Of a DNA stretch of 64,000 nt, positions 6,775-23,803 are shown one piece after another (the first letter of the stretch is position 1; every line of letters begins with the position of its first letter). Below the pieces are notes generated by a model that saw only the letters and a program-made list of their open reading frames with translations, was not told where the DNA came from and did not search any database. The stretch comes from Natrarchaeobius halalkaliphilus (lineage in GTDB: Archaea > Halobacteriota > Halobacteria > Halobacteriales > Natrialbaceae): contig NZ_REFY01000003.1 of the NCBI RefSeq assembly GCF_003841485.1, forward strand, positions 310,001 through 374,000, read 5' to 3'. Position numbers and translations under genes: made by a program.

Positions 6775-7791
6775 TTACTTTGGTATCGTGTTCACCGTCT
6801 CCTCGTCGTAGAGCACACACCGAGCCTGTTGGCCTGCCTCCGTGGGATACATCGCTGGCTCCTCGGCGGTACACTCGTCCATCGCTTCAGGGCAGCGAGG
6901 CGCGAACCGACAGCCGGACGGCAGGTTCACCGGGTCAGGGATCTCTCCCTGTAACTCGACGGATTCACGTCTATCGTCCGGATCGACGGTCGGAGTGGAG
7001 CCGACCAGCGCCTTGGTGTAGGGATGTTGTGGATCGTTAATGACTTCGGTTGCTGATCCGACTTCGACGAGTTTTCCGAGGTACATGATACCAATTCTGT
7101 CACACATATGCTTCAACAGCGAGAGGTCGTGACTAATGTAGAGAATCGAGATTCCGAGTTCCTCTTGCAACCGGTCGAGTAGATCGAGGATGCTCGCTCT
7201 GACGCTCACGTCGAGCATACTCGCCGGTTCGTCGGCCAGGATGAACGATGGCTCAAGAATAATCGCTCGAGCGATACTCACACGCTGTCGTTCACCGCCG
7301 CTGAGCTCGGAGGGATACTCGTGCATGTACGCCTCTGGAGGATTCAGCCCGACGCTTTCGATCGTCTCGATGACCGTCTCCTCTCGCTCCTCTGCAGTGC
7401 CGATTTCGTGGACGTCCAGTGGTTCTTTGATCCAGTCGAAGACGCGGTACCGTGGATTGATCGACTCGTACGGGTTCTGTTGGATGATCTGTGCCTCGGT
7501 CCGAAAGTCCATTTCGTCGCGAACATCCGGGTCCGTCACGTCGCGGCCGTCGAAGCGGACCGATCCCGACGTCGGCTCCAGGAGGTGAAGAAGGGATTTC
7601 CCACACGTCGTTTTCCCGCACCCACTCTCGCCAGCCAGTCCGAATGACTCTCCCTCCGCGATGTCGAAGGAGACACCGTCGACGGCCTTTACGTACTCGA
7701 CCTCACCCCACCCGAAAAGGCGAGTGAACAGGTCTTCGTTCGACTTGAAGTGTTTCTTGAGGTCGGTGACTTCGATTTTTGGATCAATCAT
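6775..7791 (-). CDS. dppF: Dipeptide/oligopeptide-type ABC importer, ATP-binding protein (DppF/OppF type), system 1
   Basis: The 338-residue product is an OppF-type ATPase: Walker A GESGCGKTT, signature LSGGERQRV, Walker B ILADEP, and the C-terminal oligopeptide-ABC extension with CRFAPRCPEAMDEC, a cysteine motif linked to Fe-S binding in this subfamily. It powers uptake as a dimer with the DppD protein. The ATG at 7791 overlaps the end of dppD by 8 bp, so this is the last gene of a tightly packed dppB-C-D-F operon read on the minus strand. The matching solute-binding protein is probably the one at 13890-15614 (inference from proximity). Confidence 0.93.
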   Translation of the reverse strand: MIDPKIEVTDLKKHFKSNEDLFTRLFGWGEVEYVKAVDGVSFDIAEGESFGLAGESGCGKTTCGKSLLHLLEPTSGSVRFDGRDVTDPDVRDEMDFRTEAQIIQQNPYESINPRYRVFDWIKEPLDVHEIGTAEEREETVIETIESVGLNPPEAYMHEYPSELSGGERQRVSIARAIILEPSFILADEPASMLDVSVRASILDLLDRLQEELGISILYISHDLSLLKHMCDRIGIMYLGKLVEVGSATEVINDPQHPYTKALVGSTPTVDPDDRRESVELQGEIPDPVNLPSGCRFAPRCPEAMDECTAEEPAMYPTEAGQQARCVLYDEETVNTIPK

Positions 7792-8830
7792 TGGCTTCCT
7801 CCACCTGTAGGGCCGCATCGGTTTCGTCGTCCATCCAGGTCTCTTTTTGCTTTGCTTTCTCGGTCAACAGTTCCTGTTCGTCCGCTCTGTGGCACTCGAC
7901 GATGTGGCCGTCGTCGTACTCCGTCGGCTCCGGCGTGACGTCCCAGCACTCGTCTGTGGCGAACGGACAGCGTGGTGCAAAGCCACACCCCTCCTCGAGA
8001 TCGACGAGGTCCGGCGGCGTTCCGGGGATGGATATCAGGTCCTGATCGTCCTCTTCGATATCCGGGAAGGCGTTTCGAAGTCCCAGGGTGTAAGGGTGGC
8101 GGGGCTCTTTGATGATCGTCCCGACATCGGCGTGTTCGACGACACGCCCGCCGTACATCACGGCGATATCATCACAGATGTCGGAGACGACGGAGATGTC
8201 GTGCGTGATGAGGATGATGCTACTCTGGAACTCGGTCTGTAAGTCCCTGAGCGTCTGGAGAATCCGATCCTGAATCACGACGTCCAGTGCGGTCGTCGGC
8301 TCGTCAGCGATAATAAGGGATGGATCCAGACACAGCGCGAGTGCGATCATCGCTCGCTGGGCCATTCCACCCGAGAACTGGTGTGGGTAGTCGTCGATCC
8401 GGCCTGGATCGATACCGAGCTGTTCGAACAGCTCTCTCGCTCGTTCTCGAGCGTCGGCCTTCGAGACGTCTTCGTGCGTTCGGATCGCTTGAACGATCTG
8501 GTCACCGACCGTGTAGACCGGATCGAAACCGTTCATCGCGTTCTGGGGAACCATCGATATTTCGTCCCATCGCATCTCCTTTCGGAACGCTCTGTCGCTG
8601 AGTTCCGTCAGGTCGGTCCCCTTGTAGTCGATCTCGCCTTCGGGGACGTGACCGTTTTTCGCCAGCAAGCGAATAATCGCTTTGGCGAGCGTCGATTTCC
8701 CCGAACCGCTTTCACCGATCAGCCCCAGTATCTTGTCCTCCTCTAGGGAGATACTGACGCCGTTGACGGCTTTTACGGAGCCTCCATCCTCCATCTCGTA
8801 CTCTACGTGCAGGTCAGTTAGTTCTAACAT
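7784..8830 (-). CDS. dppD: Dipeptide/oligopeptide-type ABC importer, ATP-binding protein (DppD/OppD type), system 1
   Basis: The 348-residue product carries Walker [11 protein letters not shown]-loop region SMVPQNAMN, signature FSGGMAQRA, Walker [12 protein letters not shown] and the C-terminal oligopeptide motif [14 protein letters not shown]. The ATG at 8830 begins [11 protein letters not shown], the usual N-terminus of the family; the longer open frame overlaps dppC and is rejected. It begins 5 bp after the dppC stop codon and overlaps dppF, which supports one transcript. Its role is ATP hydrolysis at the cytoplasmic face of the importer. Confidence 0.93.
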
Positions 8831-8835
8831 TGGTA

Positions 8836-9765
8836 TCAGTGGCGAATTTCTGGGTTGGTTATCTCCTCTAGGGTCCGACCGATGAAGAACACCGATGAGA
8901 CGAGCAACATGATGCACACTCCCGCGGGAAGAACCCACCACCAGGCCTCACGAATCGCTCCGTGCGTGTACGCCTGATACATCATTCGACCCCAGGAGTA
9001 GACGTTCGGATCACCGAATCCGAGGAACGCGATGCTCGCCTCGTACATGATCGCGTACGCGACTGCAAACGCCATATACAGCACGGTTAGTGGAAGAACG
9101 TTCGGGAATACGTGGCGATAGAGGATGCGAAAGTCGCTTGCTCCGATCGCGTTCGCTGATTCGACGTACGGCCGTTGTTTCTGCGTGAGTACTTCGGATC
9201 GAACGACTCGTGCCGAGTCCCGCCAGAGGATCGCGGCGATGACCAGCATGATGTTGACGATGTTCGCACCGAAGATGAACACGAGAACGATCACGAACGG
9301 CAAGAACGGAAGGCCGTACGCGATGTCGACGATTCTCATCAGCAGGTCGTCGACCCAGCCACCGTAATACGCACTGAGTAGTCCGACGTTCGTTCCGATG
9401 AAAACGGCGATGAACGCCGCCAGGAATCCCACGAAGACGGAGACTCGAGAACTGATCAATACCTGTGAAAGGATATCCTGTCCGTGGTGTGTGGTTCCGA
9501 GAAGGTGGTCCGCAGACGGCCCGTCCAAACGTGCGAGCGATCCGTCACTTCGACGGTGGCGTTCACCGGGGTTGTACGGCGCGAGAATCGGCGCAAAGAC
9601 GGCGACGAAGATGAACGCGGTAAGCACGACGAGACCGAACTGTCCGAGGCGGTCCGACCGATACAGTTCGAACGCGGTCCGGAGGCCGTCTTTGAGTTGG
9701 CTGATCGCGCGGCTCGACGAGAGCCTCGATTCGACAGCAGTCGGGAGATGGTCTTTGACACTCAT
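8836..9765 (-). CDS. dppC: Dipeptide/oligopeptide-type ABC importer permease (DppC type), system 1
   Basis: The 309-residue product begins with a cytoplasmic stretch and a first hydrophobic helix (LVVLTAFIFVAVFAPILAPY), typical of DppC proteins. The HLLGTTHHGQDILSQV segment and the EAA-type coupling loop (ESANAIGASDFRILYRHVFPN) identify it as BPD-transport permease. Several further hydrophobic helices follow. It starts one base after the dppB stop codon. It forms the channel with DppB; the solute cannot be read from the sequence. Confidence 0.93.
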   Translation of the reverse strand: MSVKDHLPTAVESRLSSSRAISQLKDGLRTAFELYRSDRLGQFGLVVLTAFIFVAVFAPILAPYNPGERHRRSDGSLARLDGPSADHLLGTTHHGQDILSQVLISSRVSVFVGFLAAFIAVFIGTNVGLLSAYYGGWVDDLLMRIVDIAYGLPFLPFVIVLVFIFGANIVNIMLVIAAILWRDSARVVRSEVLTQKQRPYVESANAIGASDFRILYRHVFPNVLPLTVLYMAFAVAYAIMYEASIAFLGFGDPNVYSWGRMMYQAYTHGAIREAWWWVLPAGVCIMLLVSSVFFIGRTLEEITNPEIRH

Positions 9766-9766
9766 G

Positions 9767-10744
9767 TTAATCGTACCTCACTCGCGGGTCCAGATAGACG
9801 TACGCAAGGTCTGCGACGAAGTTCATCCATATCACGATGCTCCCCATCAGGAAGAAAATCGCCTGTGCGAGCGGATAATCGTTGTACGTCACGGATTCGA
9901 CCATTTCGCGACCCATGCCTGGCCAGCTAAAGACGGTCTCGATGACCAGCGATCCGCCGATCGACATGCCAACGACCAGCGCAACGACGGTCGTCATGGG
10001 GAGAATCGAGTTCCGAGCGGCGTGTTTGTACAGGATGATGTACTCCGGAATCCCTTCCGCTCGCTTTATCTGTATGAAGTCGGAGTTCAGGACGTTGATC
10101 ATGCTGCTTCGCATGAGCAGCGTCGGCGTCGCCATGTAGTAAATCACGCCGGTCAAGACGGGAAGGACGAGGTGGTGGGCGACACCCCAGTTGACGTATC
10201 GTCCGAGGAAGCTTTCGTATTCCATTCCCGGCGGTCGAATTCCACCGGACGGGAACCACCCCAGATAGAACGTAAACACCATCAATGTGAGAATACCGAT
10301 CCAGAACTCCGGTGACGAGCGGGCCACGAGCGTGACGATGATACCCGCCTTTTCCTTGCGAGTTCCTCGCACCCAGCCGATGAAGGCACCGACGGTGACG
10401 CCGATAACGTACGCGATCGAAAAGGCAAGTCCCATCAGGATAATCGTATTGAAGAATCGAACGACGAGAACGTCCCAGACGGGGACCCCGTGTCGAAATG
10501 ACTGACCCAGGTCTCCAGTGAGATACTGGGCCATGTACTCGACGTACTGAATGTGTAAGGGTTGGTCCAGCCCGTGACGGGCCAGTATTTCCTGGCGTTC
10601 TTGGGCGCTCAACCCTTCCTGAAGGTACATGGACGTCGGATCTCCTGGTGCGAGCCGAAACACGACGAACAGGAGTGTGAGAAACGCCCAGTACGTGACG
10701 ATTAGTTGACCAATACGGCGAACGACATACTTTTTAAGACTCAT
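9767..10744 (-). CDS. dppB: Dipeptide/oligopeptide-type ABC importer permease (DppB type), system 1
   Basis: The 325-residue product shows the DppB hallmarks: N-terminal VRRIGQLIVTYWAFLTLLFVVFRLAPGDP, the short ARHGLDQPLHIQY segment and the coupling loop IKRAEGIPEYIILYKHAARN, with about six hydrophobic helices. It is the first gene of the dppBCDF operon. A possible TATA (TAGTATAA, minus strand, about 10885) lies roughly 140 bp upstream, so the transcript may have a leader, unlike many neighbours. Confidence 0.93.
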   Translation of the reverse strand: MSLKKYVVRRIGQLIVTYWAFLTLLFVVFRLAPGDPTSMYLQEGLSAQERQEILARHGLDQPLHIQYVEYMAQYLTGDLGQSFRHGVPVWDVLVVRFFNTIILMGLAFSIAYVIGVTVGAFIGWVRGTRKEKAGIIVTLVARSSPEFWIGILTLMVFTFYLGWFPSGGIRPPGMEYESFLGRYVNWGVAHHLVLPVLTGVIYYMATPTLLMRSSMINVLNSDFIQIKRAEGIPEYIILYKHAARNSILPMTTVVALVVGMSIGGSLVIETVFSWPGMGREMVESVTYNDYPLAQAIFFLMGSIVIWMNFVADLAYVYLDPRVRYD

Positions 10745-11023: not shown

Positions 11024-11105
11024 ATACGGTTTACTGTAAATCATTGCCGGCGCACCCGTCGCCCGGGTCGCGGATGCGCCGGTAAATCGTTACAGTAATC
11101 CGTAT
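11024..11105. repeat. 82-bp palindromic repeat element, copy 1
   Basis: Almost the whole segment is one inverted repeat: the left end ATACGGTTTACTGTAAATC pairs with the reverse complement of the right end GTTACAGTAATCCGTAT, and the GC-rich middle continues the stem. The last base is the first base of the kinase stop codon (TGA read on the minus strand), so the element starts exactly at the 3' end of that gene. Copies of equal length and related sequence are at 55229-55310 and 30945-31025. It could act as a 3'-end hairpin or be a miniature mobile element. Confidence 0.85.
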
Positions 11106-12574
11106 CACTCGCTATCGATCGAGCCGAACTCAGCGACTGCGTGTTCCAACGCGCGATCCCATTCGCCGGTCCGACGTGGCTCGTAATACGCGAACTCGAT
11201 CCGTTCGTCGATGATCTCGCGGCCCTCGCTGTAGGACGCGATCTCGTCGGCCGCGTTCATCTGCGAGAGGAGATTTCCGATCGCCGTCGCTTCGACAGGA
11301 CCGGCCTCGACCCGAAAGCCAGTTGCCGACGCCACCATCTGACAGAACAGCTCGTTTTCGACGCCACCCCCGACCAGGTGGAGTCGATCCGTGTACGTTT
11401 CTGACGCAGCCATCAGCTGTTCGAGCGTTATTGCAGTCCTGATGGCGAGGCTCTCTAGCAAACAGCGAGTCACCTCGCCTTCGGACTCCGGGATCGGTTG
11501 CTCCGTCTCGGTACAGTACGTTCGGATCGCCTCGATGACGTTCCCCGTCGACTGTGCTTCGAAAAACAGGGGATCGGCCGTATCGACGATCGATCGGAAC
11601 GACTCACTATCGCGTGCGTGCTCGATCAGTTCGTCGTAGGCGTGGCGGCCTCCCTCCTCTCGCCACGTATCGCGGCAGTGCTCGAGGAGGCTAAACCCCG
11701 GGAGATTGCGCAGGTAGCGGATGCGTCCGTCGACGCTCAGCTCGTTCGAAGAGGGGACGTCGAACGCGGCGTCGTTGATCACCGGCTCCTCGAGTTCGAG
11801 GCCCGGGATAAACCACGAGCCGGTACAGAGAAAGCCGGGGCTCTCGGGAGTGAAAGGGATCGCCGCCATCGCCGCGGCCGTATCGTGGCTGGGAGCGAGA
11901 AGGATATCGACGTCGTCCGAAATCGACTCCGACAGTGACGGATCGACCGTCCCCACGTTCGTCCCGGCTTCGACAGGAGTCGGGAGCACGTCGATCGGAA
12001 GATCGAGTTCCGACAATAGCTCGGTTGCCCACTCCCGAGTTCGAATGTCCATCATTCGAAACGTCACGCCAAAGCTCGTTTCACACGTCGGCTTCGCACC
12101 TAATTCGTACGAGAGGAGCTGTGGGAGCGCTACCAACGTGTCCGCGCGTTCGAACAACTCCGGATGGGTCTGGTACTGATAGTAGTACGAACTCGGCAGG
12201 CCGTTATGTCCGGTCGATGAAAAGATATCCCTCCGAGCAACCGTCTCGAGCAACTCTTCGTCTTTCGAGTACAGCGACTGATCGAGGTAACAGTAGGGAT
12301 TCGCGAGGAGTTCCCCGTCCTCGAGCAGTCCGAAGTCACACGCCGTCGTATCGATCGCGAGTGAGTCGATCGACTCGCCATCCGCAACCACCGCCTCCAG
12401 CCCGGCCCGGATCTCCTGAGTCAGGTATTCGATATCCCAGACGAGCCGTCCGTCTTCGGTTTTCATGTTCGTTTCGAACCGGTGTGCTTCTTCGATTTCG
12501 ACTCCCTCGTCGACCGTCCCATAGTATACCTTCCCAGAACTGGATCCGATATCGACTGCGACACGGACAGACAT
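11105..12574 (-). CDS. Rhamnulokinase-like FGGY-family sugar kinase
   Basis: The 489-residue product has the two actin-like domains of FGGY kinases: N-terminal phosphate loop AVDIGSSSGKV, the TTACDFGLL stretch, the catalytic-base motif SHDTAAA (Asp about 231), and C-terminal HLVGGGVENELFCQM and GPVEATAIGN. The segment RYLRNLPGFSLLEHC is especially rhamnulokinase-like, so a ketose or polyol is the likely phosphate acceptor, though specificity is not proved. The ATG at 12574 (MSVRVAVDIG) is chosen over a frame opening 13 codons earlier. It follows the yjbQ gene by 70 bp and is probably cotranscribed with it; no sugar isomerase is nearby. Confidence 0.88.
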   Translation of the reverse strand: MSVRVAVDIGSSSGKVYYGTVDEGVEIEEAHRFETNMKTEDGRLVWDIEYLTQEIRAGLEAVVADGESIDSLAIDTTACDFGLLEDGELLANPYCYLDQSLYSKDEELLETVARRDIFSSTGHNGLPSSYYYQYQTHPELFERADTLVALPQLLSYELGAKPTCETSFGVTFRMMDIRTREWATELLSELDLPIDVLPTPVEAGTNVGTVDPSLSESISDDVDILLAPSHDTAAAMAAIPFTPESPGFLCTGSWFIPGLELEEPVINDAAFDVPSSNELSVDGRIRYLRNLPGFSLLEHCRDTWREEGGRHAYDELIEHARDSESFRSIVDTADPLFFEAQSTGNVIEAIRTYCTETEQPIPESEGEVTRCLLESLAIRTAITLEQLMAASETYTDRLHLVGGGVENELFCQMVASATGFRVEAGPVEATAIGNLLSQMNAADEIASYSEGREIIDERIEFAYYEPRRTGEWDRALEHAVAEFGSIDSE

Positions 12575-12644
12575 GGCTGGTTCCATGAACACCAGTAGTA
12601 TAACTATTCGCATTACCCGCCGGTGCTCGGACCGTCTGATTGGC

Positions 12645-13889: not shown

Positions 13890-15614
13890 ATGCGGCAAAG
13901 TGATACTCACGGGAAGGGTGCAGCGAGTTCGAGTCGACGATCGGTGCTCAAGGCAGCGGGTGCAACGGGTGTTGCAGCCGGTCTTGCGGGATGTTCAGGA
14001 TTCTTTGGCGGCGGCGGCGAAACCGCCGACGGAGACTACGGGATCGAATTCGTCGAGGATCCGGCCGGCGAACCGTGGGACGAAATCGATTACCTCACGA
14101 CACCGGAGGACACCAGTCCGATCCGGTACACGTACGCGAACCTTCACGCCGAGTATCTCGAGGAGATCGGCTTCGACGTCTCGGTTCGTGCACCGAGTAT
14201 TCCACAGTACGTCGACGACGGGTTCGTTCACCGCGACTTCGATATTTACGTCGTTCGTCAACTCGATGGATGGGATCCGGATCGATACCTTCACGATGCG
14301 TTTCACTCCTCTGCGCTCGCGGAGGGTGAAGTGAATATTTCCGGCTATGACAACCCCGACTACGACGAGATGGTCGACCAACAGCGCGGGGAAATCGACC
14401 TCGAGGCGCGTCAGAATCTGGTCTTCGAGATGCAAGAGCAGTTGATGGAAGAGCAGATCATCTCTCCGATCCTCGTCCAGAACCGGATCATGGCGTACAA
14501 CGCCGATCGGTACCAGAATGCGTACTCCGGTCCCGAAGAGGGGCTCGGGCGCTTCTGGAACGCACTCAGTATCGAGCCGACCGACGAGGGTGACGAATCG
14601 CTCGTCTACTCTCAGGTCAGCGATGTAAACACGCTGAACCCGCTCAGTGCGGAGCGGGTTCGCGTCGAGCGTAACATCATCAAGCTGATGTACGACCGAC
14701 TGATGCGCATCCCCGAGGAGGGTGTCGTGCCGGAACCGTGGATGGCCGAATCCGTCGAGTCGCCCGACGAGCTAACGACCGTCGTCACGCTTCGTGACGA
14801 CCTCGAGTGGCACGACGGTGAAGACGTGACCGCAGAGGACGTCCAATTTACGTTCGAGTACGGACAGGAGCACTCCTCTTCGATCGAGAGTACGCTCAGC
14901 CCGCTCGAGAGCATCGAAGTCGAGGACGATCTGACGGTCGTCTTCAACTTCGACGAGCCGATGGCGACGTTCCAGAGCTTCCTCGCTGGTCGGAACGGAT
15001 CGATCCTTCCACAGCACGTCTGGGAGGACGTTCCCGACTCCATCGACGCGGACACCGTTGGCGAGTGGACCAACACCGACGAACCCGTGGGAAGCGGTCC
15101 GTTCATGCTTACGAATTTCGAAGGTGGCGAAGAGCTCTCGCTCGAGCGTTTCGACGGATACTTCGAGCAGCCGAACATCGACGAAATCATTCGGATCGAG
15201 TCCGCCGATACGCGCGGCATGGTGAACGCACTCGAGGACGGAACATCGGATATGGTACCGTGGGAACTCGCACCCGAGGACGTGGATCGGTTCGACGACG
15301 ACGATTCGTTCCAGACCGTCGATGCGTTCATGACGTCGATCCACTACGCGTGTTACAACATGCGTCGTCATCCGTACGACATTACGGAGGTTCGACGAGG
15401 GCTCGCACACTGTATCCCGAAAGAAGAGGCGGTCGAAATCGCCACGGCCGGAACGGCGGAAGTGATTCAGGCACCGATTTCGCCCGCACTCGACGAGTGG
15501 TACCACGACGGCGTCGAACACTTCAACCTCGACCTCGAAGCCGCAGTCCAGGAGCTAGAGGAAGCCGGCTGTGAGTGGGATATGGACGGTCAGATCCACC
15601 TCCCACCACAGTAA
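13890..15614 (+). CDS. dppA: ABC importer solute-binding lipoprotein, SBP_bac_5 (DppA/OppA) type, apparently circularly permuted, system 1
   Basis: The 574-residue product starts with a Tat signal (RRSVLKAAG, residues 16-24) and lipobox LAGC with Cys35, so it should be anchored outside the membrane. The segment order is unusual. Residues about 52-226 resemble the C-terminal third of DppA-type proteins (EYLEEIGFDVSV, the GWDPD loop, NPDYDEMV, RQNLVFEMQEQLMEE). Residues about 237-574 resemble the N-terminal two thirds (DVNTLNPLS, WHDGEDVTAEDVQFTFE, VGSGPFML) and end at EEAGCEWDMDGQIHLPPQ, where a canonical protein continues into that C-terminal third. Joining the real end to residue 52 restores canonical order. 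The signal peptide, stop codon and frame look intact. The M20 and TIM-like genes follow on the same strand. Confidence 0.9.
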   Translation: MRQSDTHGKGAASSSRRSVLKAAGATGVAAGLAGCSGFFGGGGETADGDYGIEFVEDPAGEPWDEIDYLTTPEDTSPIRYTYANLHAEYLEEIGFDVSVRAPSIPQYVDDGFVHRDFDIYVVRQLDGWDPDRYLHDAFHSSALAEGEVNISGYDNPDYDEMVDQQRGEIDLEARQNLVFEMQEQLMEEQIISPILVQNRIMAYNADRYQNAYSGPEEGLGRFWNALSIEPTDEGDESLVYSQVSDVNTLNPLSAERVRVERNIIKLMYDRLMRIPEEGVVPEPWMAESVESPDELTTVVTLRDDLEWHDGEDVTAEDVQFTFEYGQEHSSSIESTLSPLESIEVEDDLTVVFNFDEPMATFQSFLAGRNGSILPQHVWEDVPDSIDADTVGEWTNTDEPVGSGPFMLTNFEGGEELSLERFDGYFEQPNIDEIIRIESADTRGMVNALEDGTSDMVPWELAPEDVDRFDDDDSFQTVDAFMTSIHYACYNMRRHPYDITEVRRGLAHCIPKEEAVEIATAGTAEVIQAPISPALDEWYHDGVEHFNLDLEAAVQELEEAGCEWDMDGQIHLPPQ

Positions 15615-15793: not shown

Positions 15794-17089
15794 ATGCCCG
15801 AACCACAGATAGCCACGATCGACGTTCGTCGGCAGTTTCACGCGTACCCCGAGCCCTCGTGGTGTGAGTTCTACACGACGAGCCGACTGGTCGACTACGT
15901 CGAGTCCCTCGGCGTCGACGAGGTATTCGTCGGAGACGAGACCCTCGACGTAGACGAGCGGTTGGGCGTGCCCGACGAGTCGACGCTCGAGCACTGGTAC
16001 GACAACGCCGCCGCGATGGGAGCACGATCGGACGTTCTGGAATCGACCGCCGGAGGGAACACCGGTCTGGTCGCCGTCGTAGAGCGGGGTCCAGGTCCCG
16101 TCGTCGGCCTTCGGGTCGATATCGACGCGCTCCCGTTCGAGGAAGCGTCCGACTCGAGTCACACACCGGCGGCCGATGACTTTCGCTCGGAAAATACGGG
16201 CGTCATGCACGCGTGCGGCCACGACGGACATATGGCGATCGGACTCGGCGTCCTCGAAACACTGATGCACGAGGAGTTTTCCGGAACGCTGAAAGTGTTT
16301 TTCCAGCCCGCCGAGGAAGTTCTCGGCGGTGGACGGGCGATGGCCGCAACCCGTCACACCGCCGATCTCGACGCGTTCTTCGCCGTTCACCTCGGACTCG
16401 GTCATCCGACGGGCGAGATCGTGGGGGGAAGCGATAGGCCGCTTGCACTGCGACAGAGCCGTGCGACATTTCACGGGGAGTCTGCACACGCGGGGTTTGC
16501 ACCAAACGAGGGTCGAAACGCCATGCAAGCGATGAGTACGGCTATTCACAACCTGTACGGCATTCCCCGTCACGAGGACGACCTCACCCGAGTCAACGTC
16601 GGTCGTGCTCGAGCGGGAGCGGCGTCCAACGTCGTCGCCGATAGCGCAACGATCGATCTCGAGGTCCGGGCCGGAACGAACGACGTCCTCGACTACATGC
16701 TTTCCCACGTCGATCGCATGCTCGAGGCCGCTGCTTGCATGCACGACTGTTCGGTGTCGACGACGACCATCGGACGGGCACCGCGTGTCGACAGTGACGG
16801 CGTTCTCTCCGAGCTCGTCGCGGACGTCGCGAGTCGTCACCCGGGCGTCTCGTCGGTGAAACGCCACGCCCCGTTCGGTGCGAGCGAAGACACGACGTAC
16901 TTCATGCGACGGGTGCTCGAAAACGGCGGGAACGCGACGTACGTCATCGTCGGAACCGATCATCCGAGCGGGCATCACACGCCTCGGTTCGATATCGACG
17001 AGCGGAGCCTCGAGATCGGACGTGTGGTTCTCAGTGATGCGATTTTCCGGGTACTCACGGGCGAAAGGGCCCAGGACGACGACCTCTGA
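15794..17089 (+). CDS. M20-family amidohydrolase, AbgA-like
   Basis: The 431-residue product carries the M20 two-metal site: LRVDIDALP (Asp109/Asp111), the MHACGHDGH motif (His139, Cys141, His143) and QPAEEVLGGG (Glu174/Glu175), with a dimerisation domain inserted after about residue 210. The N-terminal stretch RRQFHAYPEPSWCEF and the EHWYDNAAAMG region resemble AbgA, a subunit of p-aminobenzoyl-glutamate hydrolase, more than plain hippurate-type aminoacylases. It should hydrolyse an amide bond, but the substrate is unknown. The ATG at 15794 is chosen; earlier frame is arginine-rich. It lies between the solute-binding protein gene and the TIM-like gene, 59 bp before the latter. Confidence 0.86.
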   Translation: MPEPQIATIDVRRQFHAYPEPSWCEFYTTSRLVDYVESLGVDEVFVGDETLDVDERLGVPDESTLEHWYDNAAAMGARSDVLESTAGGNTGLVAVVERGPGPVVGLRVDIDALPFEEASDSSHTPAADDFRSENTGVMHACGHDGHMAIGLGVLETLMHEEFSGTLKVFFQPAEEVLGGGRAMAATRHTADLDAFFAVHLGLGHPTGEIVGGSDRPLALRQSRATFHGESAHAGFAPNEGRNAMQAMSTAIHNLYGIPRHEDDLTRVNVGRARAGAASNVVADSATIDLEVRAGTNDVLDYMLSHVDRMLEAAACMHDCSVSTTTIGRAPRVDSDGVLSELVADVASRHPGVSSVKRHAPFGASEDTTYFMRRVLENGGNATYVIVGTDHPSGHHTPRFDIDERSLEIGRVVLSDAIFRVLTGERAQDDDL

Positions 17090-17975: not shown

Positions 17976-20084
17976 TTAGCTCTGGTCCTCGACGAGCACC
18001 TCGTTTAGCTCCTCCTGTCGATTCAGTACGTCGTCGATGTCCGTCTCTTTGTCGCTCATCACCGTTTCATCGAACAGGTGACACGACACGAGATGGCCGT
18101 CCGAAACCGACTGGGAAGCGGGCGGGGATCGTTCGCAGTCGGGCATCGCGTGAGGACACCGGCTGTGGAATCGACAGCCGGCTGGCGGATCGCTCGGATC
18201 GGGAAAGTCACCTTCCGGTTCGATTCGAGAGCTCTCGGCCCCCGGGATCGGTCTCGGAATGGACGACAGCAGAATTTCCGTGTAGGGATGATACGGCGGA
18301 TCGAACAGTTGGTCGACGGTCCCGATTTCGACGATCTCTCCGAGGTACATGACCGCGATTCGATCGGAGATGTGCTGAACGACGTTCAGGTCGTGAGCGA
18401 TGAAAAGGTACGATATGTCGTACTCCTGTTGAATGTCCATCAGGAGGTTCAGTATCTTCGCCTGAATGCTTACGTCGAGTGCGCTGACGGGCTCATCCGC
18501 GATGATGAAATCCGGATCGACGGCCAGCGCTCGAGCGATACCGATTCGTTGTTTCTGTCCGCCACTGAACTCGTGTGGGTATCTATCGAGGTGGCTTTCG
18601 TTCAGTCCCACCTCGCTCAACAGCTCTCGAACCCGTTCTTCTTTTTCGGTCTCAGAGTCGACGAGACCGTGGATCTCGAGCGGGCGGCCGATGATCTGTT
18701 TGATCGTCTTTCGCGGATTGAGACTCGAGAACGGGTCCTGAAAGATCACCTGAATGTTGGATCGTTCGCGCTTGAGCTGGCGTTTGCTCATCGCAGTCAG
18801 ATCTGAGCCGGCGTAAACGACCCGTCCGTCGTCCGGTTGATAGAGGTGAGCGAGAGTCTTGCCGAGCGTCGATTTCCCACACCCGCTTTCGCCAACCAAT
18901 CCCAGCGTTTCGCCGCGATTTATCGAGATATCGATGTCGTCGACGGCCCGAATCTGATCGCCGTGTCCGAGCAGTTCGTCGATCCATCCCGACGAGGTCG
19001 AGAAGTACTTGTGAACTCCTTCCGCGACGAGCAGCGGCTCCTGTTCCCGTTCGTCTCGACGGTCGTCGGAACGGTCGAGTTCGTCGTCGGACGAAAACTC
19101 CGGTGTGAGCGTGAGTTCGTCGGTTCGAATACACGCCGAGTGATGATCGTCGCCGGCCTTCTCGAGCGGCGGCTCGTCAGTGCGACACGCAGGCTTTTCG
19201 TACGGACAGCGGGTCCGGAACGAGCACCCGGAGGGCGTCTCGACCAGATCCGGCATCTGACCGGGGATCGTCGGTAGTCGCTCGCGCGGATCGTTGATCT
19301 TCGGGATCGCCTCGAGCAGCCCCTTCGTATAGGGGTGGCTCGTCTCCCGGAATATGCTGGAAACCGGACCGGTTTCGACCAGCGTTCCGGCGTACATCAC
19401 GCCGACGCGGTCGCACATCTGAGCGACGACACCCATGTTGTGCGTGATGAGCTGGACGGCGATATCGTTCTCTCGCTGGAGTTCCTGGAGCAAGCTCAGG
19501 ATCTCGGCCTGAATCGTGACGTCCAGTGCCGTGGTTGGCTCGTCTGCGATAATCAGGTCGGGCTCACAGGAGATCGCCATCGCGATCATCACGCGCTGGC
19601 GCATTCCACCACTGAGTTGATGTGGGAACTGATTCGCTCGCTCGCTGGCGTTTGGAATGCCGACCCGATCGAGCAGGTTCACGGTTCGTTCTCTGGCTTC
19701 AGCGTCGGTGGCGTCGGTGTGGTTTCGAATAACGTCGTCGATCTGGGTTCCGATAGTGAACGACGGATTGAGCGCACTCAACGCGTCCTGAAAGATGACT
19801 GCGATATCGTTTCCACGGATCGATCGCAGTTCGGATTCCGACAGCGAGAGGAGGTCAACACCGTCGAATCGGATCTCCCCGTCGGTTATCTGGCCCGGTG
19901 ACTGAATCAGGTCCAGCACTGAGAGTCCGGTCACCGATTTTCCCGCGCCGCTTTCTCCGACCACACCGTACACCTCACCGGGATAGATCTCGTAGCTGAC
20001 GCCATCGACTGCCTTGACAGTCCCTTCTTCCGTCTGAAACTCGGTGTGTAAGTTCCGAACCTCGAGCAGGGGTTCTCGGCTCAT
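17976..20084 (-). CDS. dppDF: Fused DppD-DppF ATP-binding protein of an oligopeptide-type ABC importer, system 2
   Basis: The 702-residue product joins two full ATPase domains. The first (about 1-330) has [28 protein letters not shown] and a [14 protein letters not shown] tail. After an acidic linker the second (about 345-700) has [29 protein letters not shown] and [14 protein letters not shown]. Both nucleotide sites look intact, so the single chain can replace the usual DppD/DppF pair. Its ATG overlaps the stop of dppC by 4 bp, so the two are cotranscribed on the minus strand. System 1 uses separate ATPases, showing the two importers are not a recent tandem duplication. Confidence 0.94.
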
Positions 20085-20989
20085 ATTCCACCCGTTGTAT
20101 CAGCATCGACATCCGTCTTCGGATCGAGCGCATCTCGAAGTCCGACGCCGAGGAACGTAAGTCCCAGGACGGTACTCATGATCGCGATCCCCGGAAAGAG
20201 GCTGATCCACGGAGCGGTCTGGAGATTTCGCTGTCCCTCGCTGATCATGACGCCCCACGTCGGGGTCGGCGGCTGTGCGCTCAGTCCGAGATACGACAGT
20301 CCGGCTTCTGCGAGGATCGAAAACGCGAAGATGATCGTTGCCTGAACCATCACTGCAGAAACCATATTCGGCAACATTTCACGGAACATGATGTTGAACG
20401 AGTGTTCTCCGTACGATTTCGCAGCAAGTACGTACTCCTCTTCTCTCACGGAGATCGCACTCCCTCTCGTGATCCGGGTCATGATCGGAGCGAACGCGAT
20501 TCCGAGTGCCAGAATAATCTGGTTGAGGCCGGGACCCAGAATCGCGACGACGATCAAGCCGAGGAGAATGTTCGGAAACGCAAAGAAGACGTCGACCGTC
20601 CGGCTAATCGCCTCGTCGACCCAGGAGCGATAGTAGCCGGCGACCAGTCCGGTGACGACTCCGGTGACGGTCGCGATCGTGACGACTAGGGCTGCGACAC
20701 GGAGGCTAATTCGTGTTCCGTACAACACTCGAGAGAAGACGTCGCGACCGTATCGATCCGTCCCGAACGGGTGCTCGAGCGACGGTGCCAGTAGCCGTCG
20801 AGCGCCGTCCGTCGATCCCGGATCGTACGGCATGATAAGTGGCGCAACGATCGCAACGATAACGTAGATGATGGTAAAGTAGAGCCCGAACATCGCCAGC
20901 GTGTTTCGTCTGAATCGGGCGTAGATCCGCCGATAACGCGTATGTTCCTCGAGAAAGTTGTGAAAATACGTATGAACGAACGAGATCAT
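20081..20989 (-). CDS. dppC: Oligopeptide-type ABC importer permease (DppC type), system 2
   Basis: The 302-residue product is a BPD-transport permease of DppC type: one N-terminal helix (MFGLYFTIIYVIVAIVAPLI), the HPFGTDRYGRDVFSRV segment and the coupling loop AAKSYGEHSFNIMFREMLPN, followed by more hydrophobic helices. It is divergent from the DppB gene and overlaps the fused ATPase gene by 4 bp. A minus-strand TATA (GCTATATATTACT, 21008-21020) lies about 25 bp before the ATG, so the transcript is probably nearly leaderless. Confidence 0.93.
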   Translation of the reverse strand: MISFVHTYFHNFLEEHTRYRRIYARFRRNTLAMFGLYFTIIYVIVAIVAPLIMPYDPGSTDGARRLLAPSLEHPFGTDRYGRDVFSRVLYGTRISLRVAALVVTIATVTGVVTGLVAGYYRSWVDEAISRTVDVFFAFPNILLGLIVVAILGPGLNQIILALGIAFAPIMTRITRGSAISVREEEYVLAAKSYGEHSFNIMFREMLPNMVSAVMVQATIIFAFSILAEAGLSYLGLSAQPPTPTWGVMISEGQRNLQTAPWISLFPGIAIMSTVLGLTFLGVGLRDALDPKTDVDADTTGGI

Positions 20990-21007
20990 AGGAGGAGTTT
21001 TAAACCG

Positions 21008-21054
21008 AGTAATATATAGCTATCGATGGCAACAGTACCGGAACTGTTTTATTA
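21008..21054. promoter_or_regulatory. Back-to-back promoters with shared inverted repeat for importer system 2
   Basis: The minus-strand TATA GCTATATATTACT (21008-21020) is 25 bp from the dppC start, and the plus-strand TATA TTTTATTA (21047-21054) is 29 bp from the dppB start. Between them lies AACAGT-N6-ACTGTT (21031-21048), whose right arm touches the plus-strand TATA. This position allows one regulator to control both arms of the importer operons. The regulator is unknown. Confidence 0.5.
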
Positions 21055-21078
21055 GCGCAGGAACGCTACTTTCGTCAG

Positions 21079-22026
21079 ATGAGTTGGAGCCAGTACGCGA
21101 TAAAACGTACCCTGTCCAGTCTATTCGTTCTGTTCGGTGCGTCGGTCGTCATTTTCTCTATCGTTCGGTTGATCCCCGGCGACCCGGCGCAAGTCTTACT
21201 GGGTGATACTGCACGCGAAGCACAACTCGAGGTCGTTCGTCGCGAACTCGGCCTCCATCGACCGGTCTGGGAGCAGTATTTCATCTGGTTGTCCGACGTT
21301 CTCACGCTCGACCTCGGTCGGAGCTACATGAACAATCAGTTGATAACCGAGCTCATCGCGATCCGTTATCCGCGTTCGCTTCAGCTGGCGATATTCACGA
21401 TGATCTTTGCGTCGATGATCGGGATTCCACTCGCCATCTGGGGTGCCAGCAACCGAAACAGCTCCAGAGATTACCTCGCGTTGTTTTTCTCCCAGTTCGG
21501 CGTCTCGATTCCGAGTTTCTTTCTCGGCGTCGTCCTCATCCTGCTCTTTGCGAACTACATTCCGCTCTTTCCGCCGTCGGGATACATGTCATTCTTCGAT
21601 CACCCACTCGGTAACGTCGTCCACCTCTTCTTGCCAGTCGTGACACTCACGGTGATCAACGCCGCGATCATCACGCGCTATTTGCGTTCGGAAATGCTCG
21701 AAAACCTGAACTCCGAGTACGTTCAGACCGCTCGAGCGTACGGGCACTCCGAGCGACGGATCATTCTGAAATACGTCGCGAAGAACGCGATGATCCCGAC
21801 GATAACGGTCATCGGGATCCAGTTCGGCGGAATCATCGGCGGCGTGGTCATCATCGAGGAAGTGTTTTCCTACCCGGGAATCGGGCTGTTGCTTCTCGAT
21901 TCGATTCTGCGACGCGATTACCCTGTGATTCAGATCTCGTTGCTGGCCATCGCTGCGACGTTTATCTTCGTCAATTTGATCGTCGACCTGATATACGGCT
22001 ATCTCGATCCGCGGATCAGACATTAG
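21079..22026 (+). CDS. dppB: Oligopeptide-type ABC importer permease (DppB type), system 2
   Basis: The 315-residue product has the DppB N-terminus (VIFSIVRLIPGDPAQVLLG), the RRELGLHRPVWEQYFIWL segment and the coupling loop TARAYGHSERRIILKYVAKN, with about six hydrophobic helices. It is encoded on the opposite strand from its DppC and ATPase partners and 163 bp before the solute-binding protein gene on the same strand. The importer is therefore built from two divergent transcripts. Confidence 0.93.
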   Translation: MSWSQYAIKRTLSSLFVLFGASVVIFSIVRLIPGDPAQVLLGDTAREAQLEVVRRELGLHRPVWEQYFIWLSDVLTLDLGRSYMNNQLITELIAIRYPRSLQLAIFTMIFASMIGIPLAIWGASNRNSSRDYLALFFSQFGVSIPSFFLGVVLILLFANYIPLFPPSGYMSFFDHPLGNVVHLFLPVVTLTVINAAIITRYLRSEMLENLNSEYVQTARAYGHSERRIILKYVAKNAMIPTITVIGIQFGGIIGGVVIIEEVFSYPGIGLLLLDSILRRDYPVIQISLLAIAATFIFVNLIVDLIYGYLDPRIRH

Positions 22027-22189
22027 CGTCCCGTCGTCGCCACGGACACACTCGACTGGGCTCACAGATTCCACCCACAAGGCGCCATCGACGAAGGTCG
22101 ATAATACGTATATTTCGTCCCGGTGACAGCTGAAGGGGACAGGTACACTTATCTGGTTCGTCCCACATCGTCCACCGGTAGGGAATAAC

Positions 22190-23803
22190 ATGAAGTCAGA
22201 GAATACAGTAACAGAACTGAACAGGCGTCAGGCGCTTACCCTCCTCGGTGGGGCAGGTAGCGCTGCGATGCTCGCAGGGTGTCAGGACGTCGGTGATGAC
22301 GGCGACGATGACAGCTCCACGCTGCACGTCCAACTTGGTGGCTCGCTCGACTCGCTCGATCCACAGTTAGCGGGATTGCGAAACACGCAGGTCGTCGTCA
22401 ACAGGGTCGTCGAAAAGCTGTTCGAACCGGATATCGAGATGGAGATGGAACCGGTGCTCGCAGAAGGATACGAGCTGACCGACGACGGCGGCTCCGTGAT
22501 TATTCAGCTTCGGGACGGCGTGATGTTCCATCCGCCGTACGAGCGAGAGATGGTCGCTGAAGACGTCGTCTACAACTTCGATCGGGTCTCGGATCCGGAT
22601 ACCGGCTCACCGCGTCAGGACAACTTCGACAATCTCGAAGACTGGTACGCAGAAGGCGATTACGAACTTCGAATCGACTTCGAAGAGCCCGAAGCGGCGC
22701 TCGAAGCGACGCTTGCGAACACTGGAATGCACGTTCTGTCTCCGGACGCACTCGAGGAGGAGGGCGATGCCTCGAGTCACCCGGTGGGGACCGGACCGTT
22801 CGTGTTCGAGGAGTGGGTTACCCGGGACCACATCCACCTCGTCGCTCACGACGACTACCGGGTCGACGGTGTTCCCGGCGTCGAAGAAGTCTATTTCAGG
22901 CCGATCGAGGAACCTGCGACGGCGATTACGGAAATTCAGGAAGGGGAGATCGAAATGCTTCACGACGTGCCACTCGACAACGCCGGCCAACTCGAGGACG
23001 ACGACGATATCCAGGTGCAGTTCGTCGAAGCGCCGGACCTGCGGTTCCGGATGATGGTCAACGCCTCCGACAACGAAATCGACGGCCGCGCACCCGGCGC
23101 ACCGACCCAGAGTCAGAACATCCGTCAGGCGATTGCAGAGGCAATCAACCAGCCCGACTTCGTCGAGATTGCAGCGGGAGGACACGCGGACGTTGGGCAG
23201 ACGGTCTATCCGGAAGATAACGTCTGGGGAGTCGACTACCAGCCGTTCAGCGTCGAAGCCGATCCCGACCGGGCGCAGGAGCTGATCGAGGAGTCCGACT
23301 TCGACGCGCCGGTCGAATTGACCATGATCTCCGCGTCCGACGAAGACGACCTTCGAACCCTCGGCCAACTCGCTCAAGATCAGTTGAACGACGCCGGTTT
23401 CGAGGTCAACCTCGAGGAGATGGAGGTCGCCTCGTGGGTCGAACGGCTGAACGCCTTCGAGTGGGACATCACTCCGAACCACGGCTCACACAGCCCGGAC
23501 CCCGCCCTGAAGCGCTTCGAGCGAATGTTCTGGACGGACGAGGAGAACGTGCCGTACTACGAGAGTCCCGACTCGAACGCCGACCGCGTCTTCGAAATCT
23601 TCGAGGAAGACAGTAGCGAACTTTCACAGGACGAACGATACGAACTGTACGCCGAATTCCAGCGCCTTCTCTGTGACGACGCCGTGTATCTCATCTGTTG
23701 TCATCCACAGAACGCACACGCGCTGCGAACGTACGTCGAGGACTTCGAGATCCACCCGATGGACATGTACTTCCCGATCCACAACGCCCGTCTCGAGCAG
23801 TAG
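22190..23803 (+). CDS. dppA: ABC importer solute-binding lipoprotein, SBP_bac_5 type, system 2
   Basis: The 537-residue product has a Tat signal (NRRQALTLLGG) and lipobox LAGC with Cys31. Its segments are in canonical DppA order: DSLDPQ near the N-terminus, MVAEDVVYNFDRV, the VGTGPFVFEEW motif, then the C-terminal lobe with LNDAGFEVNLEEME and the terminal domain around YAEFQRLLCDDAVYLI. It therefore serves as an in-window control for the permuted protein at 13890-15614. The ligand could be a peptide, oligosaccharide or other polar solute; this family is broad and the pocket cannot be read from sequence. Confidence 0.93.
   Translation: MKSENTVTELNRRQALTLLGGAGSAAMLAGCQDVGDDGDDDSSTLHVQLGGSLDSLDPQLAGLRNTQVVVNRVVEKLFEPDIEMEMEPVLAEGYELTDDGGSVIIQLRDGVMFHPPYEREMVAEDVVYNFDRVSDPDTGSPRQDNFDNLEDWYAEGDYELRIDFEEPEAALEATLANTGMHVLSPDALEEEGDASSHPVGTGPFVFEEWVTRDHIHLVAHDDYRVDGVPGVEEVYFRPIEEPATAITEIQEGEIEMLHDVPLDNAGQLEDDDDIQVQFVEAPDLRFRMMVNASDNEIDGRAPGAPTQSQNIRQAIAEAINQPDFVEIAAGGHADVGQTVYPEDNVWGVDYQPFSVEADPDRAQELIEESDFDAPVELTMISASDEDDLRTLGQLAQDQLNDAGFEVNLEEMEVASWVERLNAFEWDITPNHGSHSPDPALKRFERMFWTDEENVPYYESPDSNADRVFEIFEEDSSELSQDERYELYAEFQRLLCDDAVYLICCHPQNAHALRTYVEDFEIHPMDMYFPIHNARLEQ

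Follow-up and report, generated by a model that had tools for sequence, protein, structure and literature searches.

A predicted circular permutation in a family 5 solute-binding lipoprotein of Natrarchaeobius halalkaliphilus and in its archaeal and bacterial relatives

To our knowledge, natural circular permutations are uncommon. The closest described case is TpMglB-2 (Tp0684) of Treponema pallidum, a circularly permuted, glucose-binding Type I lipoprotein proposed as 'Type Ic', in which the first three strands of the N-lobe have moved to the C-terminus and a fourth hinge crossing is found; its structure has been solved, ligand binding is kept and the permutation is present in many relatives (PMC4990184). 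The protein described here resembles it as a predicted natural circular permutation of a lipid-anchored ABC solute-binding protein (SBP), however TpMglB-2 has the Type I (cluster B) fold, whereas the present protein belongs to a Type II, cluster C family and is predicted to be cut in lobe II. Its matches in Pfam and in phmmer searches of PDB sequences were to family 5 exclusively, with none to the Type I, MglB-like fold of the Type Ic SBPs. With the SBP_bac_5 proteins (PF00496; cluster C/Type II) DppA, OppA and AppA it shares sequence family, motifs and length, and it would differ from these canonical proteins in its swapped blocks, its joined native termini and its new termini in lobe II. Other haloarchaeal SBPs are likewise secreted by way of a twin-arginine (Tat) signal and lipobox, and DppBCDF-type transporter operons are a further feature in common. 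No description of permuted Type II, cluster C, SBP_bac_5 or DppA proteins was found in the open PMC literature, as distinct from subscription papers and preprints, and permuted family 5 SBPs, across two domains of life, appear to be unreported. One paper that pairs 'circularly permuted' with 'dppA' concerns transcript processing and cites permuted ribosomal RNA.

The window, the whole 64,000-nucleotide stretch of N. halalkaliphilus DNA that was analysed, contains the gene among the features collected in Table 1. The frame is intact from its ATG to its TAA, and the N-terminus of the encoded protein, MRQSDTHGKGAASSSRRSVLKAAGATGVAAGLAGC (SRRSVLK...LAGC), carries a lipobox preceded by a twin-arginine signal, in agreement with the original prediction, made from the sequence without database searches, that frame, stop codon and secretion signal were all intact. 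Behind the signal, lipobox and tether lie the native C-terminal third, a joint of seven residues and the native N-terminal two thirds. The junction reads ...GRFWNALSIE-PTDEGDE-SLVYSQVSDVNTLNP..., for comparison with mature E. coli DppA, which starts with KTLVYCSEGS and ends with ...HHFENVSIE. The stretch SIEPTDEGDES had already been taken for a linker without a frameshift, and the joint can now be narrowed to P230-E236; its counterpart is an HMM-unaligned gap of 4-9 amino acids in most close relatives, and longer elsewhere. The permuted chain starts just ahead of the strand EIDYLTTPED and ends just past the helix and strand DLEAAVQELEEAGCEWDMDGQIHL, the new termini corresponding to approximately residues 341-355 in the mature DppA of E. 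coli, a region that we place in the lobe opposite the native termini.

Table 1. Features of the predicted permuted SBP gene and its surroundings, in positions of the window.
Feature	Position	Strand	Evidence
Predicted circularly permuted family 5 solute-binding lipoprotein, 574 aa	13890..15614	+	Pfam, PDB matches, orthologues L009/L010
Twin-arginine signal with lipobox SRRSVLKAAGATGVAAGLAGC, residues 15-35	13932..13994	+	Sequence pattern
Native C-terminal block, residues 62-229, now first; terminal strand NALSIE	14073..14576	+	phmmer, profile stretches
Joint PTDEGDE, residues 230-236, from native C-terminus to native N-terminus	14577..14597	+	Sequence
Native N-terminal and middle blocks, residues 237-574, now second; start SLVYSQVSDV	14598..15611	+	Pfam, PDB
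New C-terminus past helix LDLEAAVQELEEAGCEW and strand DGQIHL	15528..15611	+	Profile, block-HMM and DppA comparison
DppB/OppB-type permease, likely partner	9767..10744	-	NCBIfam, best Opp2B 244 bits; conserved in two relatives
DppC/OppC-type permease, likely partner	8836..9765	-	NCBIfam, best Opp4C 260 bits; conserved
DppD/OppD-type ATPase, likely partner	7784..8878	-	NCBIfam; conserved
DppF/OppF-type ATPase, likely partner	6775..7791	-	NCBIfam; conserved
M20-type amidohydrolase just downstream	15794..17089	+	TIGR01891, 263 bits (cut-off 153.75); conserved in both relatives
Canonical-order SBP of the second transporter, internal control	22190..23803	+	Pfam, residues 85-439 = profile 1-353

Pfam analysis aligns residues 281-569 of the protein with positions 2-286 of the 368 in the PF00496 profile, at a score of 207.2 bits against a curated cut-off of 32.4, and the final 80 profile positions are absent from its C-terminal end. 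The second SBP of the window, which serves as an internal control, follows the profile in the normal order (Table 1), as had been claimed for it. In phmmer searches against PDB sequences, residues 237-562 match 19-337 of 5isu and residues 91-208 match 365-478 of the same protein, in reversed order, and the matches to 3t66 and 5u4o show the same reversal. A profile (A1) built from 20 permuted relatives matched AppA (1xoc) in two stretches, 22-345 (i-E 3e-66) and 360-500 (i-E 3e-18), again reversed, and among the listed solved structures none matched the whole of this profile collinearly. These searches confirm the C-terminal motifs that had been placed at residues 52-226 or thereabouts, in a block now refined to approximately 62-229, and the N-terminal and middle motifs placed at approximately 237-574. 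The expectation that the SBP_bac_5 profile would yield two reversed hits held for two permuted paralogues encoded by this genome, in which a second Pfam stretch (profile 279-362 and 287-360) lies upstream of the first (2-286 and 1-286), but not for the window protein itself, where the second stretch is sub-threshold. No single collinear hit was found, and the PDB matches rule out that residues 52-226 belong to another domain family.

The canonical succession of N-terminal, middle and C-terminal blocks expected of SBP_bac_5 is thus not followed; two homologous blocks, swapped, span nearly the whole domain, the native termini appear to be joined in an order common to the orthologues, and the cut appears to fall after a helix and strand. 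With both blocks drawn from one family and their order shared by relatives, the circular permutation first proposed stands: on this sequence evidence, the window protein is a family 5 (DppA/OppA, SBP_bac_5) SBP in circularly permuted form, and it very probably serves a dipeptide/oligopeptide-type ABC importer as a working receptor lipoprotein.

Far from being a local oddity, the window protein belongs to a family that is large and old. Five of the nine SBP_bac_5 genes in its genome have the permuted pattern by Pfam and block HMMs, including two in which Pfam detects the missing profile end upstream. Full-length collinear matches at E < 1e-60 were found in 30 of the 125 genomes of the organism's family, and 231 of 292 haloarchaeal genomes pass the same threshold with the permuted profile, some of the lower-ranked of which may do so with canonical partial matches; among the matches listed for the 292 genomes, all were full-length or nearly so, and collinear. 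With the end of the Pfam match taken as a proxy for permutation, a count by hand in 29 haloarchaeal genomes gave heaps of approximately 84 matches ending at position 326 or above (canonical), 44 at 276-297 and 12 at 257-262, and by this proxy about 40% of the family 5 SBPs in these genomes look permuted. Two block HMMs sorted an SBP set into 59 permuted and 39 canonical proteins. In archaea of the phylum beyond the haloarchaea, most SBPs match the N block only and are canonical; permuted SBPs are present outside the haloarchaea in the f15 family. The bacterial distribution was sampled from plasmids, which carry permuted SBPs in Roseomonas, Nitratireductor, Ketogulonicigenium, Neorhizobium, Microvirga and Maritalea. 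Where an annotation of these plasmid proteins exists, it is plain 'ABC transporter substrate-binding protein', and annotation gives no hint of the permutation because the Pfam matches stop early. No relatives were found in the viral contigs searched.

The permuted proteins fall into two breakpoint classes. In type A, which holds most of them and the window protein, the C-terminal end lies past the 'EEAG' helix of lobe II; in type B (L005, L130, L132-L136 and L145) and in L150-L152, this helix stands at the N-terminus and the cut falls approximately 30 residues earlier, a difference reflected in Pfam matches that stop near 286 or near 260. For phylogenetic analysis, the proteins were split into their two blocks, each of which was aligned and concatenated in canonical order. 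The main type A clade contains haloarchaeal and alphaproteobacterial proteins and is separated by canonical proteins from type B and f15, and at least three or four clades are candidates for independent permutation, namely type A with the window protein, B/A2, B2/B3 and f15. Bacterial sequences nest inside a mainly haloarchaeal clade, suggesting gene transfer between domains of life.

A single clade for all permuted proteins was not rejected in the first set (AU test, p 0.148), but was rejected once more type B members had been included (p 0.0125), and more strongly with further groups (p 0.0014); types A and B as one clade gave p 0.055. The free tree of the last and widest set requires four changes of order, and the single-origin topology is absent from all bootstrap trees, although further sequences entered the sets when the first tree was already known. 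These values bear on the possibility that the permutation arose once, that the separating canonical proteins are misplaced by long branches and that the breakpoint classes are later shifts of the helix, a history that seems rather unlikely given the wider sampling. It is favoured by the two higher p values, by branches that are indeed long, and by the sister clades A2 and B, which carry the helix at opposite ends; breakpoints can therefore shift, and breakpoint class alone is ruled out as proof of separate origins. Repeated origin of the permutation is likely, though not proven, given the long branches and sets that were assembled step by step. With modest confidence, we favour several independent permutations at or beside the same lobe II helix, extending to about 40% of the haloarchaeal family, and a transfer to the alphaproteobacteria.

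On sequence grounds, the permuted chain would fold into the usual two-lobed family 5 shape, since the native termini would be two strands of lobe I that can be joined by a short turn and the new ends would sit in a surface loop of lobe II; AlphaFold2 gave a pLDDT of only 33 for the window protein, both with one sequence and with three. Ligand capture and delivery to the permease would proceed as in DppA, and with the new termini in lobe II, the lipid tether would leave that lobe instead of lobe I. A twin-arginine (RR) and lipobox pattern is present in 66 of 69 permuted archaeal entries outside f15 and in none of the six alphaproteobacterial ones, five of which have no lipobox pattern and so look soluble and periplasmic. 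That the permutation is an adaptation to anchoring, the tether on the other lobe causing the receptor to sit or dock differently on the permease, is doubtful in view of these bacterial proteins, which are permuted all the same, and of the canonical lipoprotein SBPs that function in the same cells; anchoring alone cannot explain the topology when most bacterial members lack a lipobox. The idea, comparable to one raised for TpMglB-2 (PMC4990184), draws support from the haloarchaeal permuted members, which are lipoproteins, and from one f15 member whose PGF-CTERM-like anchor is C-terminal and, the chain being permuted, would likewise leave lobe II. A PGF-CTERM-like tail, presumably an anchor at the new C-terminus, was observed in the permuted, non-haloarchaeal protein L107 (G501:C2:103915-105396).

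The textbook route to circular permutation is tandem duplication followed by trimming of both ends, and such a duplication-and-trimming route is plausible here. Most likely, an SBP gene would have been duplicated in tandem and in frame, after which the first copy would have lost its N-terminal block while keeping the signal peptide and the second copy its C-terminal block, an event that probably occurred more than once in the family, at or near one loop. A protein of 1197 amino acids in haloarchaeon G126 (L155; G126:C1:2362140-2365730, - strand) joins two complete canonical SBP_bac_5 modules head to tail in one reading frame, with 69% identity between them. Unlike the window protein, L155 has two family 5 modules per chain, both complete and canonical, and it belongs to another subfamily than the permuted clades; between its outer ends, the C1-N2 part shows exactly the order of the permuted proteins, which indicates that the intermediate state is viable. 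Among 145 genomes searched, the fused form was found in G126 only, the other matches (four genomes) being single modules. G126 also encodes a single-module paralogue elsewhere in its genome, 74% identical to the second copy of L155. In the set of 59 permuted and 39 canonical proteins, the block HMMs found no protein with two copies of one block, and no duplicated-block intermediate was found with them inside the permuted clades.

On the descent of both blocks from one ancestral gene, trees built from the separate blocks broadly agree, with a weak signal in the C block. Both keep type B and f15 as clades and put the window protein with the same relatives, and L124, which ranks first among canonical proteins for the N block, is second best for the C block. 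This agreement makes it improbable that the gene is a chimera, with the C-terminal piece of one SBP gene fused ahead of the N-terminal piece from another, even though the blocks are in principle separable evolutionary units, SBP genes are numerous and sometimes adjacent, and the tree of the C block alone recovers the main permuted group less cleanly (two changes).

Two genomes of Natrarchaeobius chitinivorans encode full-length collinear orthologues with the identical block order, L009 and L010 (84% and 83% identity), in the same gene neighbourhood as in the window. Against these two orthologues, dN/dS is 0.12 and 0.10 for the whole gene and 0.05-0.06 for the moved block, and the permuted gene is under strong purifying selection. 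An assembly error, frameshift or pseudogene can be dismissed with near certainty, since the orthologues keep order, neighbourhood and low dN/dS, and the permuted order is repeated in independent assemblies and many collinear homologues. At the L010 locus, a TIM-like gene directly adjoins an aldo/keto reductase gene, and the whole second (canonical) transporter (17976-23803 in the window) is absent.

The Dpp/Opp-type set of two permeases and two ATPases (6775-10744) contains no further SBP gene and is a conserved neighbour of the permuted gene at both L009 and L010; the canonical SBP goes with its own transporter set (17976-22026). The permuted SBP and dppBCDF are both retained in the flank retrieved for L010, in which the genes of the second transporter were not found, supporting their pairing. 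Judged from the neighbourhood, dppBC-dppDF is the most likely partner of the permuted SBP, however these genes are encoded on the opposite strand, and three others separate them from it. Complete SBP-B-C-D-F operons with a permuted SBP occur in Halalkalicoccus, Roseomonas, Ketogulonicigenium, Nitratireductor and Maritalea. In alphaproteobacteria and Halalkalicoccus (L077-L079, L128 and L080), the operons often adjoin M20/M28 peptidase, hydantoinase/oxoprolinase or creatininase genes. The ATPase of the second transporter in the window (17976-20084) is a single DppD-DppF-like fusion of 702 amino acids, in place of the separate genes of the first. Candidate ligands of the permuted SBP are peptides, acylated amino acids and sugars, as the M20-type amidohydrolase gene follows it and a rhamnulokinase-like gene lies nearby. 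The latter (11105-12577) encodes an FGGY kinase with a score of 327 bits, below the NCBIfam cut-off of 528; it is conserved beside the permuted SBP and transporter, and hints at a deoxy-sugar pathway.

The permutation concerns a major class of nutrient receptors in two domains of life. The presence of canonical and permuted SBPs in one genome, the several permuted clades and the fused double SBP make the origin of permutations testable, and the same material makes it testable whether the lobe that bears the tether matters for docking to the permease. The cut in lobe II is a possible opening site in family 5 SBPs for biosensor design. If true, the independent permutations would mean that one topology evolved repeatedly at a single site.
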